NCBI RefSeq assembly: GCF_003063295.1
Contig: NZ_MUXF01000016.1
Location: 31,273-95,272 of the forward strand
Direction: 5' to 3'
From: Arcobacter lacus
Lineage (GTDB): Bacteria; Campylobacterota; Campylobacteria; Campylobacterales; Arcobacteraceae
DNA length: 64,000 nucleotides
Shown: piece by piece, positions 22,484 to 50,665 of the stretch
Position numbering within the stretch: the stretch's first letter is position 1
Layout of the letters: each line of letters opens with the position of its first letter
The notes under the pieces: model-generated
The model's input: only the letters and a program-made list of their open reading frames with translations
What the model was told of the DNA's origin: nothing
Database searches by the model: none
Made by a program: the position numbers and the translations under genes

Positions 22484-22572
22484 TCTTTTTTAATATATAT
22501 AAATGGTTAAAGTAATATAAAAGGTAAATATTATAGGATTTCTTTGAATTTAACGCTTGCTTAACTTAAAGT

Positions 22573-22581
22573 TGGTACAAT
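22573..22581 (+). promoter_or_regulatory. Extended -10 promoter of the ABC/Cys-motif operon
   Basis: TGGTACAAT (22573-22581) combines a TG extension with a TACAAT -10. It sits 15 bases before an AAAGGAG Shine-Dalgarno, giving a very short leader to the ATT codon at 22606. Confidence 0.5.
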
Positions 22582-22605
22582 AATTTTTCGACAAAGGAGT
22601 TAACT

Positions 22606-22851
22606 ATTTCGGCTTTATCAAAAATTTTTATATTATTTATTTTAACTTTTTTATCAATTTTTATTTATTGTATTTTTTTAAATAATAAAACTAGTTATTC
22701 ATCAATCATTACAAAGATTACTAAAAATTCTAATTTGGCATATTCAAATAGTATTTTTGAATCAAGATTTAAAGAAAATCAAAATAATAATTCGAATTTA
22801 GTTTTGGTTCCATTACAAATAAGTTATTTGGATTTTGTATATGAAAAATAG
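22606..22851 (+). CDS. Small membrane-anchored protein with apparent ATT start, first gene of an ABC operon
   Basis: An 81-codon reading frame missed by ordinary start-codon rules. It begins ATT TCG GCT at 22606, six bases after a consensus AAAGGAG, and stays open to TAG at 22849-22851. No ATG, GTG or TTG occurs in frame between the preceding in-frame stop (22567) and this point; the first TTG comes some 40 codons later. The predicted protein has a hydrophobic helix at about 4-26 (KIFILFILTFLSIFIYCIF) and a polar Asn/Ser/Lys-rich remainder, so a signal-anchored periplasmic protein. It overlaps the permease gene by 11 bases. Function unknown; no family recognised. A sequencing error in the start codon is an alternative. 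Confidence 0.6.
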   Translation: MSALSKIFILFILTFLSIFIYCIFLNNKTSYSSIITKITKNSNLAYSNSIFESRFKENQNNNSNLVLVPLQISYLDFVYEK

Positions 22852-24019
22852 TGTTTTTTTCAATTTCATTTTTTTGCTTTTAGTAAAACACAAATCAAAA
22901 CATTTTGCTATTTTTTTAATATCAATTTTTATTGTGTTTTTAACTTCATCAATTTTATTCATCAAAAATAGTTTACAACAAGAGATTTCTGAAGCTTTAG
23001 AAAACCAAAGTGATTTTATAGTACAAAAAACTATAGCTAATAAAATAAAAGATATTGATATCTCTTTAATAGATAAATTTTATGAAATAAATGGAGTTTC
23101 AAAAGTAACTCAAAGAGTTTATGGACAATATTATTTTATGCCAGAAAATATCTACTTTACTATTATTGGAATTGATTTTTTTGAAGAAACTACAAATCAA
23201 GATTTAAAAGAACTTTTAAACTTTTTAAATATTTCAAAGTTTTTAGAAAAAGATTCTATGATTATTGGAAATGGTATTAAAAAAGTATTGGATAAATATG
23301 CTTATTTTGATTCTTATGATTTTAAACTTGAAAATGAAAATTCAAAAAATATCAAAATTTTTAAAGATTTACCAAAAGAAGCAAATTTAATAGCAAATGA
23401 TCTGATAATTATGGATATAAATATCGCAAAAAGGATTTTAGATATTAAACCAGATTTTGCAACAGACATAGTTTTAGATGTTCCAAATCCACTTGAAAGA
23501 CAAAATGTAAAAGAACAGATTCTTTTAAAAGAGTCAAACATAAGAATTTTACAAAAAGATGAACTAAAAAAAGAGTATGAAAATATGTTTAATTATAAAG
23601 GCGGAATTTTTTTGATTTTATTTATAGTTGTAATATTTACATTTATTTTAGTTTTATATCAAAGATATTCAATGATTAGTTCAAATGATAAAAGAGAAAT
23701 AGGTATTTTAAAAGCAGTTGGTTGGAGTATAAAAGATATTATAAAACTTAAAATTATAGAAAATTTCATAGTTGCTTTTATGGCATTTATTATAGGAGTA
23801 ATTTTTGCTTATATTTTTGTATTTATTTTACAAGCACCAGTATTAAAAAATATTTTTATAGGTTTTTCAAATATCAAAAATGATTTTATTTTAAATGAAA
23901 ATATAAGAATTTCAAATCTTATTACATTATTTTTATTTTTTATGGTTCCATTTTTAAGTGCAGTTTTAATTCCTGTTTGGAAAATAGCAGTAATTGATGC
24001 TACAAAGAGTATGAAATGA
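22841..24019 (+). CDS. ABC transporter permease, FtsX/MacB-like
   Basis: About 392 residues. One helix near the N-terminus (about 20-40), a large extracytoplasmic domain, then three helices in the C-terminal FtsX domain (about 255-280, 305-335 and 360-385). The coupling segment KREIGILKAVGWSIKDI before the third-last helix is typical of FtsX/LolC/MacB permeases. I prefer the ATG at 22841; a TTG two codons earlier is possible. It overlaps the small upstream gene and shares ATGA with the ATPase gene downstream. Systems of this type move or extract lipids, lipoproteins, peptides or signal across the envelope rather than import solutes. Confidence 0.85.
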   Translation: MKNSVFFNFIFLLLVKHKSKHFAIFLISIFIVFLTSSILFIKNSLQQEISEALENQSDFIVQKTIANKIKDIDISLIDKFYEINGVSKVTQRVYGQYYFMPENIYFTIIGIDFFEETTNQDLKELLNFLNISKFLEKDSMIIGNGIKKVLDKYAYFDSYDFKLENENSKNIKIFKDLPKEANLIANDLIIMDINIAKRILDIKPDFATDIVLDVPNPLERQNVKEQILLKESNIRILQKDELKKEYENMFNYKGGIFLILFIVVIFTFILVLYQRYSMISSNDKREIGILKAVGWSIKDIIKLKIIENFIVAFMAFIIGVIFAYIFVFILQAPVLKNIFIGFSNIKNDFILNENIRISNLITLFLFFMVPFLSAVLIPVWKIAVIDATKSMK

Positions 24020-24687
24020 TAAAAATCAAAAACTTAAATAAAGTCTTCTATGAAAATACAAATAAAGAATTTTATGCTTTAAAAGATATAAATTTAAATA
24101 TAAAAAAATCATCTTGTGTTGTTTTAAAAGGAGTTAGTGGGAGTGGAAAATCAACTTTATTATCTCTTATTGCAACTTTACAAAAACCATCTAGTGGTGA
24201 AATTGTCGTAGAAAATGAAAGTATTGCAAAACTTCCTGATTTTCATGCTTCGAATTTTAGAGCAAGAAAAATTGGATTTATTTTTCAATCATTTAACCTT
24301 TTTAATGAGTTAAGCGTTAAAGATAATATTAGTCTTCCTTTAATTCCTCTTGGATTTTCTCAAAAACAAATAGATGAAAAAGTAATAAACACTTTAAAAC
24401 TTGCAAATATTTTACATAAAAAAGATGAATTAGTCTCAAATCTTTCAGGTGGAGAAAAACAAAGATGTGCAATTGCAAGAGCTTTAGTAAATAATTGTGA
24501 AATAATACTTTGTGATGAACCAACTGCAAACTTAGATTATGAAAACTCTAAAAATTTTATAGAGATTTTAAAAGAGTTAAAAGAACTAAAAAAAACAATT
24601 ATTATTGCAACTCATGACCCAATTTTTGATAATCTTGATTTTGTAGATTCTGAAATTCTTATAAAAAATGGACAAATTTGTGAATAG
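24016..24687 (+). CDS. ABC transporter ATP-binding protein, LolD/MacB-like
   Basis: 223-residue ATPase partner of the FtsX-like permease. Walker A GVSGSGKST at 39-47, Q-loop IFQSFNLF near 89-96, signature LSGGEKQR at 143-150, Walker B IILCDEPTANLD at 163-174 and switch His in IIATHD near 202. All motifs are intact. It overlaps the permease by four bases (ATGA) and the downstream membrane protein gene by 20, so stoichiometric coupled translation is expected. Confidence 0.92.
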   Translation: MIKIKNLNKVFYENTNKEFYALKDINLNIKKSSCVVLKGVSGSGKSTLLSLIATLQKPSSGEIVVENESIAKLPDFHASNFRARKIGFIFQSFNLFNELSVKDNISLPLIPLGFSQKQIDEKVINTLKLANILHKKDELVSNLSGGEKQRCAIARALVNNCEIILCDEPTANLDYENSKNFIEILKELKELKKTIIIATHDPIFDNLDFVDSEILIKNGQICE

Positions 24688-25648
24688 TATATTTTTATCA
24701 AATGAGATAATCATTTTTTTATTTGTACAACTAACTCTTTTTATTCTTTTATTTGTAGCTTTTTATTTTTCGTTTTTTATTATAAAAAATTGGGATTTTA
24801 GTAAAACTTCAAATAAACAATACAAGCTAGAAAAAACTTCATATTTAGTCATTTTAATCATAACATTTACACTTATTGTAAAAATATTTTTATTTCCTTA
24901 TTTTGCTTATACCTTAGACAATTTGTCAAATGTTGTTCCTGGCGCTATGTGTGCTGCTGGAATTGTTGGAGCAAATAAATATGGACAGATAAATTTATTT
25001 TTGAAAATTGTAATTTTATTTTTTATAGGAATTTGGCTTATCATCAACTCTTTTGATATAAAAGAAAAAACTTATCCATATACAAAGAAAAAATATTTTT
25101 TATATATTTTTATTTTTATTTTCTCTATTCTTGAACTAATTTTAGATTTTTTGTTTTTATCAAATATTCCTACAAAAGAGCCAGTTTTATGTTGTTCAGT
25201 GATTTTTGGAGTAAATGGTATCGGAAGTAAAATACCATTTGATTTATCAATAAATACTTTTTTAATGCTTTTTTATATGATATATTTGTTGATAATTTTT
25301 CTAAATCTTCAAAAAAAAGCATTTTTAAATTTGCTTACAAATTTTTTATTTTTATATATTGCATATTATGCAACTACTTACTTTTTTTCAACATATATTT
25401 ATCAACTACCAACTCATCAATGCCCATTTTGTATGCTTCAAAAAGAGTACTTTTTTGTAGGTTATTTTATTTGGGGAAGTTTATTTTTAGGAACATTTTT
25501 TGGAGTAGCAAGTTTTGTTTTAAAATTAATTTTGAAAAAAGATTTTGATTTTATTTATAGATATTCAATTATTTTTAATACCTTATTTGTATTTTTGAAT
25601 TCTTTTTATGTGATTAGATATTTTATTATAAATGGAGTCTTTTTATAA
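24668..25648 (+). CDS. Eight-helix membrane protein with conserved-looking Cys motifs
   Basis: I do not recognise a named family. 326 residues with about eight hydrophobic helices (roughly 10-40, 57-80, 108-128, 143-164, 193-213, 217-243, 261-288, 296-322). Five cysteines are grouped: C95 in PGAMCAAGIVGANKYG, C175-C176 in PVLCCSVIFGVNGIG, and the CxxC pair C252/C255 in HQCPFCMLQ. The two loops with Cys followed by a glycine-rich stretch, plus a CPxC at a helix edge, recall the layout of VKOR/DsbB-type thiol oxidoreductases or of a haem/metal-handling protein, but this is only an analogy. It starts inside the ATPase gene and is the last gene of the operon, ended by a strong palindromic hairpin. 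Confidence 0.75.
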   Translation: MDKFVNSIFLSNEIIIFLFVQLTLFILLFVAFYFSFFIIKNWDFSKTSNKQYKLEKTSYLVILIITFTLIVKIFLFPYFAYTLDNLSNVVPGAMCAAGIVGANKYGQINLFLKIVILFFIGIWLIINSFDIKEKTYPYTKKKYFLYIFIFIFSILELILDFLFLSNIPTKEPVLCCSVIFGVNGIGSKIPFDLSINTFLMLFYMIYLLIIFLNLQKKAFLNLLTNFLFLYIAYYATTYFFSTYIYQLPTHQCPFCMLQKEYFFVGYFIWGSLFLGTFFGVASFVLKLILKKDFDFIYRYSIIFNTLFVFLNSFYVIRYFIINGVFL

Positions 25649-25675
25649 ATCCGTAAAATTTTACGGATTTATAAA
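25642..25675. terminator. Perfect 34-bp palindrome, terminator
   Basis: A perfect palindrome centred between 25658 and 25659 (half-site TAAATCCGTAAAA) follows the stop of the Cys-motif membrane gene at the convergent border with the small lipoprotein gene. It probably ends transcription from both sides. Confidence 0.65.
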
Positions 25676-47335: not shown

Positions 47336-47391
47336 TTTGTTCAATGAGTGACTTTTTGTGACTTGTATATAAAATTAGTAGGAGGAGATTG

Positions 47392-48858
47392 ATGCAAAAC
47401 GGTGCACAAATTGAGTATGATTACTCAGTTGCAAAAGCCTTTACATTTGCAACAATATTGTTTGGTATCATAGGTATGACAATTGGTGTTGTACTTGCGT
47501 TTCAATTAGCTTTCCCAGAGCTAAATCATTTAGCAGGGGAGTATGGTACATTTAGTAGATTAAGACCTTTACACACTAATGGTGTTGCTTTTGGTTTTGC
47601 TTTAAGTGGTATTTTCGCAACTTGGTATTACGTATCTCAAAGGGTATTTAAAGTTTCATTAAAAGAATCACCTTTTTTAATGGCTATTGCAAAATTACAC
47701 TTTTTGTTATATTTCATTACTATTCTTTTAGCTGTTGTTACTTTGTTTATGGGAATTACAACATCAAAAGAATATGCTGAATTAGAGTGGCCACTTGACA
47801 TTTTAGTTGTTGTTTGGTGGGTTTTATGGGGTATCTCAATTTTTGGAATTATTGGAATTAGAAGAGAAAGAACTCTATATATTTCAGTTTGGTATTATAT
47901 TTCTACATTTATTGCAGTTGCAATGTTGTATTTATTCAATAATATGGAAGTTCCAACTTATTTAGTTTCTGGATATGGTTCATGGATTCACTCTGTATCT
48001 ATGTATTCTGGTACAAATGATGCACTAGTACAATGGTGGTATGGACATAATGCTGTTGCATTCGTATTTACTACACCAATTATTGCTATGATTTATTATT
48101 TTTTACCAAAAGAATCTGGACAAAATGTTTATTCTTATAAATTATCTATCTTAGCATTCTGGGGATTATTATTTGTTTACTTATGGGCTGGTGGACACCA
48201 CCTTATTTATTCAACTGTTCCAGATTGGATGCAAACTATGGGTTCTGTTATGTCAGTTGTTTTAATTTTACCATCATGGGGATCTGCAATTAATATGCTT
48301 TTAACAATGAAAGGTGAATGGCAACAATTACAAACAAATACATTAATTAAATTTATGGTATTAGCTTCAACTTTCTATATGTTATCTACTATTGAAGGTC
48401 CAATTCAATCAATCAAATCGGTAAATGCAATTGCACACTTTACAGATTGGATTCCTGGTCACGTTCATGATGGTGTTTTAGGATGGGTTGTATTTATGAT
48501 TATGGCAGCTTTATATCACATGGTTCCAAGAATGTATAAAAAAGAGTTATATTCTAAATCTTTAATGGATACACAATTCTGGTTACAAACTACTGGTATC
48601 GTTTTATACTTTACTTCTATGTGGATTGCAGGTATTACACAAGGTATGATGTGGAGAGCTTATGATGAATATGGTTCATTAGTATATTCATTTATTGATA
48701 CAGTAAATGTATTACATCCATATTATACAATTAGAGCAGTTGGTGGGTTATTATACCTAATTGGATTCTTTATATTTACATATAACATTTATAAAACAAT
48801 TAAATGTGGTAGAGTGCTTGATAAAGAGCCAGTAAATGCAACTCCAGTAGCTGCGTAA
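47392..48858 (+). CDS. ccoN: cbb3-type cytochrome c oxidase subunit I
   Basis: Catalytic haem-copper subunit of the high-affinity oxidase. About 12 membrane helices; histidine ligands are recognisable in RPLHTNGVAFGF, in the copper region WWYGHNAVAFVF with AGGHHLIYS downstream, and in HFTDWIPGHVHDG. Start is ATG 47392 behind a very strong AGGAGGAG; a TTG directly before it is less likely. Length 488. First gene of ccoN-ccoO-ccoQ-ccoP. Confidence 0.97.
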   Translation: MQNGAQIEYDYSVAKAFTFATILFGIIGMTIGVVLAFQLAFPELNHLAGEYGTFSRLRPLHTNGVAFGFALSGIFATWYYVSQRVFKVSLKESPFLMAIAKLHFLLYFITILLAVVTLFMGITTSKEYAELEWPLDILVVVWWVLWGISIFGIIGIRRERTLYISVWYYISTFIAVAMLYLFNNMEVPTYLVSGYGSWIHSVSMYSGTNDALVQWWYGHNAVAFVFTTPIIAMIYYFLPKESGQNVYSYKLSILAFWGLLFVYLWAGGHHLIYSTVPDWMQTMGSVMSVVLILPSWGSAINMLLTMKGEWQQLQTNTLIKFMVLASTFYMLSTIEGPIQSIKSVNAIAHFTDWIPGHVHDGVLGWVVFMIMAALYHMVPRMYKKELYSKSLMDTQFWLQTTGIVLYFTSMWIAGITQGMMWRAYDEYGSLVYSFIDTVNVLHPYYTIRAVGGLLYLIGFFIFTYNIYKTIKCGRVLDKEPVNATPVAA

Positions 48859-48872
48859 GAAAAGGAGAGATT

Positions 48873-49538
48873 ATGTTTCATTGGTTTGAACAAAGACCGT
48901 TTTTCTTTGCGGTACTAGTATTTTTATTTGTTGCATTTGCAGGAATTATAGAAGTAATTCCAGACTTTGCAAAACAAAGTAGACCAACAGTTGGTACAAA
49001 ACCATATTCAGTATTAGAATTAGCTGGAAGAAATGTTTATATTAAAGATTCGTGTAATGCGTGTCACTCTCAGTTAATTAGACCATTTAAATCTGAAACA
49101 GATAGATATGGTATGTATTCATTATCAGGTGAATATGCATATGATAGACCATTCTTATGGGGTTCAAAAAGAACTGGTCCAGATCTAATGAGAGTTGGAA
49201 ATTATAGAACTACTGATTGGCATGAAAATCATATGTGGCAACCTTCATCTGTTGTTCCTGGAAGTATTATGCCAGCGTATAAACATCAATTTTCAAATAT
49301 TGCTGATGTAGAAACTGCTTATGCAGAAGCTTTAACAGTTAAAAAAGTATTTAATACTCCTTATGACCAAGAAGGTATGCCTAAACTTGGAACTTGGGAA
49401 GAAGCAAAAGCTGCTGCTTTAGAAGAAGCAAAAGCAATTGCAGAAAATATGAAAAATGAAGATGTTAAAAAAGCTGTTGCAAACGGTGAAGTTCCTGAAA
49501 TAGTTGCATTAATTGCATATTTAAATTCTTTAAAATAA
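48873..49538 (+). CDS. ccoO: cbb3-type cytochrome c oxidase subunit II (monohaem)
   Basis: Membrane-anchored cytochrome c. One N-terminal helix (about 10-29) and one haem motif CNACH at 61-65; distal methionine probably in SIMPAYKH. A C-terminal Ala/Glu-rich helical stretch follows. Length 221. AAGGAGAG ribosome site; 14 bases after ccoN. Confidence 0.96.
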   Translation: MFHWFEQRPFFFAVLVFLFVAFAGIIEVIPDFAKQSRPTVGTKPYSVLELAGRNVYIKDSCNACHSQLIRPFKSETDRYGMYSLSGEYAYDRPFLWGSKRTGPDLMRVGNYRTTDWHENHMWQPSSVVPGSIMPAYKHQFSNIADVETAYAEALTVKKVFNTPYDQEGMPKLGTWEEAKAAALEEAKAIAENMKNEDVKKAVANGEVPEIVALIAYLNSLK

Positions 49539-49548
49539 GAGGTCTCTG

Positions 49549-49773
49549 ATGGAATATGAAACACTTTTAACAGTACAAGGCTACGCTAAATTCTTTTTAG
49601 TTTTAGCTGTATTCATTATATTTTACTCATATGCTTATTCTATTTATAAAAGGGATAAAACAGGGGAAAGGGATTTTGAAAAATACTCAAAGCTTGTACA
49701 TGATGATTCAAGTGTTTCAACTCCTCTTGAAGAAAGAAAAAAAAATAATGATATAGATAATAAGGAGAAATAA
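49549..49773 (+). CDS. ccoQ: cbb3-type oxidase subunit CcoQ
   Basis: 74-residue single-helix protein (helix about 14-33) with a charged cytoplasmic tail, lying between ccoO and ccoP as in other cbb3 operons. Sequence is poorly conserved, so identity rests mainly on size, topology and position. It stabilises the oxidase in other bacteria. Confidence 0.85.
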   Translation: MEYETLLTVQGYAKFFLVLAVFIIFYSYAYSIYKRDKTGERDFEKYSKLVHDDSSVSTPLEERKKNNDIDNKEK

Positions 49774-49774
49774 G

Positions 49775-50665
49775 ATGAAATCTATGGTTATAGGTGGAAT
49801 AATTCTTATCATCGCTCTAATGGCAGGAACTTACTTTGTAGCGGGTGATGCTTTTAACAGTGATGATTATATTAATAGCCTAACAATGTTAGGTGCAGTA
49901 GCAATTATTACAATCAGCGTATTTGTTGTATTAAAATATGTTAATCAAATGAAAAATGATACTGCAAGTGGGGAATTAACTGAAGAAAAATGGGATGGTA
50001 TCGGTGAATATAAAAATCCTATTCCAACAGGATGGGGATTAGCATTTATAGGTGCAATTTTATGGATGTTCTGGTATTTTACTGTAGGTTATCCAATTAC
50101 TGGATTCTCTCAAATTGGTCAATGGAATGAAGAGACTAATGAGTATAATGCTAAATTTGAACAAAAATGGGTAAATCCATCTGAAGAGACTTTAAAAGCT
50201 ATGGGACAATCAGTATTCTTAGTTCAATGTGCTCCTTGTCACGGTGTTGATGCAGAAGGTATTGAAGGGAAAGCTCATAATTTAACAAAAAGAATATCTA
50301 AAGAACAAATTGTTTATACTATTAAAAATGGTGCAAATAATTTAACAACAGATTTCCCTGCAGGAATGCCACCAATGATGTTAACAGAAGATGCTGATAT
50401 TGATACAGTTGCTACATACGTTGCAAGTGGATTCAAAGGTGAACAACCAGCTGCTTATGCTGTTTGTGCAACTTGTCATGGTGAAGATGGAACTGGTATG
50501 CCTTTTGTTGGTCCAAATATTAAAGCTTATGATGATGCATTAGTTATGGCTGTATTAAAAGAAGGTAAAAAAGGTCTAATTGGTACAATGCCAAGCTTTA
50601 ATGAAAGACTTAACGAAACTCAAGAGAGAGCATTGGCTTCATATTTAAGAAGTTTAGGAGAGTAA
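49775..50665 (+). CDS. ccoP: cbb3-type cytochrome c oxidase subunit III (dihaem)
   Basis: Entry point of electrons into the oxidase. Two N-terminal helices (about 5-22 and 38-55) and a third hydrophobic stretch near 88-106, then two haem motifs CAPCH (152-156) and CATCH (231-235). Length 296. Starts two bases after ccoQ with AAGGAGAAATAAG before the ATG; followed directly by a DUF4006 gene. Confidence 0.96.
   Translation: MKSMVIGGIILIIALMAGTYFVAGDAFNSDDYINSLTMLGAVAIITISVFVVLKYVNQMKNDTASGELTEEKWDGIGEYKNPIPTGWGLAFIGAILWMFWYFTVGYPITGFSQIGQWNEETNEYNAKFEQKWVNPSEETLKAMGQSVFLVQCAPCHGVDAEGIEGKAHNLTKRISKEQIVYTIKNGANNLTTDFPAGMPPMMLTEDADIDTVATYVASGFKGEQPAAYAVCATCHGEDGTGMPFVGPNIKAYDDALVMAVLKEGKKGLIGTMPSFNERLNETQERALASYLRSLGE

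Follow-up and report, generated by a model that had tools for sequence, protein, structure and literature searches.

The window analyzed here, the whole 64,000-nt stretch of an Arcobacter lacus contig, contains an operon of four overlapping reading frames on the + strand. These encode, in order, a small membrane-anchored protein, a permease of the FtsX type, an ATPase resembling LolD and a cysteine-bearing membrane protein with eight helices, labeled TM8. A role of this module in copper handling is well supported. It is based on gene content, on linkage, on co-occurrence with the Cu(I) chaperone NosL, on the exclusion of strong Sco matches within the genus, and on conserved motifs. Our reading of the operon as a whole, to which we assign an even chance, is that of a copper-handling assembly machine at the periplasmic face, which would pass Cu(I) from NosL towards the cbb3 oxidase and would replace the PCuAC-Sco system in the genus. 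We infer that the recipient of the copper is this oxidase; that part of the reading may rest on a single evolutionary switch.

The overlaps between the genes, which the sequence-only reading had already described, measure 11 nt (small gene and permease gene), 4 nt (permease and ATPase genes) and 20 nt (ATPase and TM8 genes), all on the + strand. The same reading had placed the four genes between one promoter and one strong terminator. The terminator was recovered, as a Rho-independent terminator-like hairpin of 15 pairs, 3 of them G-C, at 25642-25675 (+), with 2 such hairpins found in 5 kb against 0.9 expected. The promoter was not: a scan gave 35 promoter-like sites versus 35.6 expected. The stretch 5' of the operon is conserved between the window and 8 relatives.

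Linkage was followed in two sets of loci. The first comprises 47 TM8 loci from a scan of genome contigs, of which 41 include 1.9 kb or more of sequence upstream of TM8; the second comprises 60 loci besides the window, derived from 73 TM8 places found by two genome searches, and 37 of these loci (35 genomes) lie outside the genus. The two sets are not fully independent, because 7 of the 60 repeat first-set contigs (L001-L007). The order FtsX-ATPase-TM8 on one strand is found in 60/60 second-set loci, and FtsX and ATPase genes lie upstream of TM8 in 38 of the 41 first-set loci; the exceptions are L027 and L034, without both, and L043, with the ATPase only. The linkage is therefore strong, and the single system proposed from the letters alone proves to be a conserved one. 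In L043 (240-2961, filed as Desulfosarcina) the order is NosL-NosL-ATPase-TM8; an FtsX gene does not intervene, and nothing on the contig matches FtsX. In L034 (6001-7478), TM8 and a NosL-like anchored protein, without FtsX or ATPase, adjoin an aroC-like gene and a gene for a 443-residue protein of unassigned role.

Outside the genus, NosL genes usually precede the operon, and genes for an anchored NosL-like protein and a DsbD_2 protein often follow it. NosL is present in 31 of the 41 first-set loci; it is absent from L001-L008, and L012 and L034 have only the NosL-like protein. It also lies in the fetched stretch of 34 of the 37 non-genus second-set loci, the other three having either the NosL-like protein only (L183) or neither (L157, L158). 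PF05573 matched 31/31 NosL proteins: the one encoded in the window genome and 30 neighbors chosen for their similarity, of which 28 lie upstream and 2 downstream. The anchored NosL-like protein is a divergent NosL relative, which matches PF05573 weakly, in 6 of 29 cases. The window genome has these parts in three separate places: the operon, NosL (G000:C1:28660, E 6.6e-33), and the pair of NosL-like and DsbD_2 proteins (G000:C10:212598). The likely partners thus lie elsewhere in the genome, outside the view of the sequence-only reading. Beside that pair (L071, 8051-12377) stand genes for a TonB receptor, a periplasmic binding protein and an ABC (ATP-binding cassette) importer, which by eye resemble a cobalamin or haem uptake system.

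The ABC unit at the center of the operon is of a known kind. The permease (392 residues; 22841-24019, +, ATG start), a type VII ABC transmembrane subunit, matches the FtsX C-terminal domain PF02687 with E 1.1e-12 and 48.5 bits (cut-off 25.5). Its AlphaFold model, with a predicted local distance difference test (pLDDT) score of 82, matches LolE, MacB and the haem exporter HrtB, with Foldseek E values of 1.8e-13 to LolE and 5.4e-12 to MacB; the predicted order of helices and strands places a periplasmic domain between helices 1 and 2, as in LolE and MacB. The ATPase (223 residues; 24016-24687, +) matches PF00005 at E 1.7e-34. The FtsX-fold permease and LolD-like ATPase are what the module shares with LolCDE, MacAB, FtsEX and BceAB, all type VII ABC systems. 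However, both proteins fall below the curated cut-offs of the LolCE, LolD, FtsE and MacB models (26.6 of 362.45 bits for LolCE and 188.4 of 307.75 bits for LolD), all 25 NCBIfam matches listed for the ATPase score below theirs, and the partners of the module are copper-related. In particular, the pair is not a MacB, as ATPase and permease are encoded by separate genes and the permease reaches only 12.6 of 966 bits; nor is the permease a NosY, since it is of the FtsX type and matches ABC2_membrane_2 only at E 0.25. Neither Sco1/SenC nor PCuAC domains are among the listed family matches for the four operon proteins.

TM8 (326 residues; 24668-25648, +) carries the motifs that point to copper. Met, Cys and His side by side are usual ligands of Cu(I). 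Residues M94, C95, C175, C176, H250, C252, P253, F254, C255, M256, Q258, K259 and E260, among others, are invariant in 42/42 members, forming the motifs M-C, C-C and H-x-CPFC-M. The AlphaFold model has eight helices (pLDDT 89; predicted template modeling score, pTM, 0.86), and in it the Cys-bearing loops 2-3, 4-5 and 6-7 are all predicted on one side of the membrane. This side is probably periplasmic, because the opposite loops carry most of the Lys and Arg residues (15 versus 4, five flanking residues counted), as expected from the positive-inside rule.

The sequence-only reading had also asked about homology of this last gene to a characterized family, and none was found. The window protein and its profile gave no Pfam, NCBIfam or PDB sequence match, and a Pfam scan of the 42 members at E 0.1 returned only weak, chance-like hits to CYYR1 (2), SVM_signal (1, E 0.0074) and DUF4714 (1). 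By sequence, TM8 thus appears to belong to no described family. Foldseek gave no match to its model at E<=0.001 (best E 0.57). In a second structure comparison (VIA), the matches listed have Z scores of 8.9-12.5 and almost all of them are confined to residues 1-172; they are to designed bundles, FAT domains, KCNQ channels, cytochrome b561 and oxidase subunit III. We read these model-based matches as generic helical bundles, and they hardly probe the C-terminal half, which contains H250 and CPFC.

The same residues could be arranged for redox chemistry. That is, TM8 might be a membrane thiol oxidoreductase, similar in function to DsbB or VKOR, which keeps copper chaperones or copper itself reduced, with the ABC part in the same pathway. 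The CPFC and C-C motifs in predicted periplasmic loops and the DsbD_2 neighbor would suit such an enzyme, and the PCuAC-Sco operon of Campylobacter jejuni likewise encodes anchored Cys proteins, which the excerpted text of PMC8267372 suggests may be reductases. However, DsbB and VKOR are absent from the Pfam matches of the 42 TM8 members at E 0.1, and a redox enzyme alone needs no ABC unit. The Met that is invariant next to the Cys motifs suits Cu(I) ligation instead. We therefore consider an oxidoreductase unlikely, though with a real share of the probability. Of the earlier guesses made from the operon's letters, metal handling is borne out, the evidence pointing to copper; haem and a plain thiol transporter are not favored, and the Cys pairs could still have a redox role within a copper pathway.

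The association with NosL extends to whole genomes. In a class sample of 150 genomes, TM8 occurs in 47 and NosL in 57; both occur in 47, and NosL alone in 10. In a genus sample of 31 genomes, 28 of them at least 90% complete, TM8 is found in 24 and NosL in 26. Among the 28 complete genomes, 23 have TM8 and NosL and 5 have neither, with NosL unlinked to the operon. The anchored NosL-like protein (E<1e-60) follows the same pattern, in 22 of the 23 TM8-plus complete genomes (not G161) and 0 of the 5 TM8-minus ones.

NosDFY-NosL is the assembly apparatus of nitrous oxide (N2O) reductase, NosZ. It resembles the module in that an ATP-driven ABC unit works together with NosL, a Cu(I) chaperone, on the periplasmic side, and differs from it in its ABC-2 permease NosY, where the module has FtsX, and in NosD, which is not in the operon; the module in turn adds TM8 and the small protein, and occurs in genomes without NosZ. 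One might accordingly suppose that the module matures NosZ in the manner of NosDFY-L. Its NosL partners would agree with this, as would the distribution of NosZ in the class sample, where it is found in 40 genomes, 32 of the 47 with TM8 versus 8 of the 103 without; in G058, G061 and G074 the module lies ~11-20 kb from nosZ. Nevertheless, 15 of the 47 TM8 genomes lack NosZ yet have NosL, including the window genome (no PF18764 match), and 8 genomes carry NosZ without TM8. In the genus, NosZ occurs in 7 of the 28 complete genomes, versus TM8 in 23, and a Cu-oxidase in 4; at these frequencies neither explains the genus pattern. NosZ as the sole recipient is thus rejected by its distribution, and we find the NosZ explanation quite improbable. 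A multicopper oxidase as recipient was also rejected, as too rare (4/28).

An outer-membrane partner is suggested by three loci, L020, L030 and L045, in which a TonB-dependent receptor gene with the CxxxM plug motif of OprC (GACPNRMD) adjoins the module. For the L030 and L045 receptors the best NCBIfam family is TonB-copper, at 188.1 and 178.3 of 472.45 bits, below the cut-off. The L030 receptor aligns through the motif to OprC (PDB 6fok), a comparison that concerns the CxxxM half of the site; the OprC copper site is taken from an excerpt of PMC8610252. Receptors of the OprC/NosA type would be outer-membrane partners encoded outside the window operon. In the class sample, the motif is found in 24 of 47 TM8-plus versus 12 of 103 TM8-minus genomes. 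An OprC-type receptor as obligate partner was rejected, given that all five genus members of that sample have the motif, and as evidence for copper we use the receptor only through local adjacency in the three loci.

The proposed recipient is encoded in the window, outside the operon. A ccoNOQP cluster for a cbb3 oxidase lies at 47389-50665 (+), with the PF00115 match of ccoN at 47428-48753, 22 kb downstream; ccoO, ccoQ and ccoP were named from reading frames by eye and are putative. PF00115 oxidases occur in 31/31 genus genomes. Strong matches to Sco1/SenC (E<1e-30), by contrast, are found in 5/5 TM8-minus complete genomes and in G169, versus 0/24 TM8-plus genomes (0/23 complete). All six strong Sco genes stand after a PCuAC gene and a gene for a short anchored protein, in one operon. 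This operon of the TM8-minus genomes is much like cj0908-0911 of C. jejuni, whose deletion cut cbb3 activity by >50% according to the part of PMC8267372 consulted. The PCuAC-Sco system is like the module in its proposed role, copper supply to cbb3, and within the genus it occurs in genomes that lack the module; unlike the module, it has no ABC transporter and no protein homologous to the module's.

Exclusion of strong Sco is exact in the genus sample, resting on few events, perhaps one. Two trees were built, one on ccoN with 31 genomes and one on 4.3 kb of the cco region with 29 of the 31. Among complete genomes, TM8 status changes 3 times on the best ccoN tree and 2 times on the best cco-region tree. 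Under approximately unbiased (AU) tests, the TM8-minus genomes could still form one clade (p 0.19 and 0.24), and one independent pair is supported. Several independent replacements are therefore not claimed. TM8-minus G030 is collinear with the window from dksA to the tRNA genes and lacks only the four-gene block (window 22495-25639). Sequence similar to the region upstream of the operon seems to be retained there, hinting at loss. At this empty site (L083, 11200-12700) the dksA flank abuts, as in the window, a hairpin, a gene for a lipoprotein-like product, tRNA-Cys/Ser/Leu and ilvD.

Two further alternatives bear on the recipient and on the direction of transport. The copper could serve another cuproenzyme, such as the octahaem sulfite reductase MccA/SirA, which contains copper. 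In Shewanella, nosL and nosY genes come after the sir genes (PMC5955497, excerpt), and a Parageobacillus NosDFY-L set without NosZ led to the suggestion of a different recipient (PMC13068155, excerpt). MccA would not, however, by itself explain the exclusion of Sco, and we allow such a recipient only a small chance. A copper export or tolerance pump of the MacB type, for which the FtsX fold, matching MacB among others, could be cited, is very improbable, as no MacA adaptor or outer-membrane channel is among the annotated neighbors (no search was aimed at them), the partner NosL serves copper supply as a chaperone, and those genus members that lack the module have an operon for copper supply in its place.

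Several observations weigh against the proposed route from NosL to the cbb3 oxidase. Sco-domain matches do occur in TM8-plus genomes: those of G160 (E 1.5e-12) and G150 (8.7e-5) exceed the curated cut-off, and those of G158 and G173 stay below it at E<=0.001. Sco was counted within the genus only, and no search for PCuAC was made in TM8-plus genomes. The Fisher p of 1e-5 for the exclusion of TM8 and Sco ignores relatedness, and the exclusion may reflect a single switch, because one TM8-minus clade was not rejected. As to NosL, G164 (76% complete) has a two-domain NosL without TM8, and G169 (87% complete, with NosZ) has one short NosL only, also without TM8; the single NosL of G167 may not be the module's own, because it lies beside nosZ. 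Co-occurrence with NosL in the class is also partly confounded by nos operons, with NosZ in 32 of the 47 TM8 genomes, and NosZ itself associates with TM8, as given above. The CxxxM receptor does not track the module in the genus, being present in all 5 sampled members, with or without TM8. Finally, we infer copper on the four operon proteins, and likewise the way it flows, the enzyme that receives it and every mechanistic step.

The small gene that opens the operon has an unusual start. No stop codon interrupts its frame from 22570 on, and the codons for the membrane helix have no in-frame ATG, GTG or TTG 5' of them. The start at 22573 assumed by the sequence-only reading lies merely inside the open frame. 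Comparison with relatives instead supports the ATT at 22606, from which the gene would run to 22851 (+; stop at 22849-22851) and encode 81 residues; the Shine-Dalgarno sequence AAGGAG (22594-22599, +), read directly, ends 6 nt 5' of this codon. In the window and 8 relatives the aligned codon is ATT, ATC or ATA and AGGAG is invariant. It is ATT or ATC in 24/24 TM8-bearing genus genomes (23 loci by eye plus the window); in one of the genus loci, L188, a TTG lies further 5', ahead of the Shine-Dalgarno sequence. By eye, the aligned codon is ATA in L008, L009, L014, L015 and L159, ATC in L016, and apparently ACG in L010, L011, L013, L022 and L026, the last five with no fitting canonical start. More distant loci, e.g. 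L017, L021 and L023, have ATG or GTG there. Among the 37 non-genus loci, a motif rule finds the small gene in 25; judged by eye, and with the GTG of L169 accepted as a start, all of these but L159 (ATA) have a plausible canonical one. Another 7 are unclassified. In the remaining 5 (L176, L177, L178, L181, L211), NosL extends as far as FtsX, so that there is no space for the small gene. An anchored gene at the head of the operon thus holds for the window and is not universal. The small protein matches nothing in Pfam, and its one NCBIfam hit is chance-like (E 0.13). It would consist of one N-terminal membrane helix and ~54 residues, thought to be periplasmic, ending in YLDFVYEK. The weak start of this gene, whose end overlaps the start of FtsX, may limit the level of the whole unit by coupled translation. 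Retained across the genus, the AUU/AUC start is a natural case of weak translation initiation.

Other features of the loci were noted in passing. In L033, filed as a Helicobacter pylori metagenome-assembled genome, a label that looks doubtful, the module lies beside an ABC-2 permease and NosL genes. In L021, L023 and L025, filed under Krumholzibacteria, TM8 is 48-49% identical to that of the window, which would fit lateral transfer or wrong binning. A gene resembling L,D-transpeptidases recurs 5' of NosL in L010 (YkuD domain), L011, L013, L022 and L026 (by cluster).

A mechanism can be proposed in which the operon serves copper-center assembly. NosL proteins would bind and carry Cu(I) to the module. 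The FtsX-LolD pair, as a type VII ABC unit, would use cytoplasmic ATP to move periplasmic parts and so supply force, as excerpted accounts describe for other type VII systems. The small anchored protein is probably an adaptor between the periplasmic domain of FtsX and the copper carrier; in the 5 loci without room for the small gene, where NosL directly precedes FtsX, NosL may contact FtsX itself. TM8 would then receive Cu(I) at its periplasm-facing Met/Cys/His motifs and hand it to a membrane or periplasmic cuproenzyme, most likely to the CuB site of cbb3, under copper scarcity. The second anchored NosL-like protein and the DsbD_2 protein would relay copper and hold thiols reduced. In the genus, the module would stand in for the PCuAC-Sco operon.

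The type VII ABC unit is of a known kind, and its combination with NosL, TM8 and the small protein, in a role in copper-center formation, has not been found in print; the open-access literature, searched for the module or its parts, yielded no paper describing it. More tentatively, and with less than even confidence, we propose that a type VII, or mechanotransmission, ABC machine and a new eight-helix Cu(I) protein together insert copper into cbb3 and have displaced PCuAC-Sco in part of the Campylobacterota. This would be a third route besides chaperone relays and NosDFY, and to our knowledge the first use of an FtsX-type ABC system in the assembly of a metal center.

In 23 of the 28 complete genus genomes, a ccoN-type oxidase gene occurs without a strong Sco match. 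The clean presence or absence of the operon between close relatives makes its role testable. If the proposal is true, type VII ABC transporters would extend beyond lipoproteins, drug efflux and cell-wall enzymes to the assembly of metal centers, and NosL would gain a role in organisms that do not reduce N2O.

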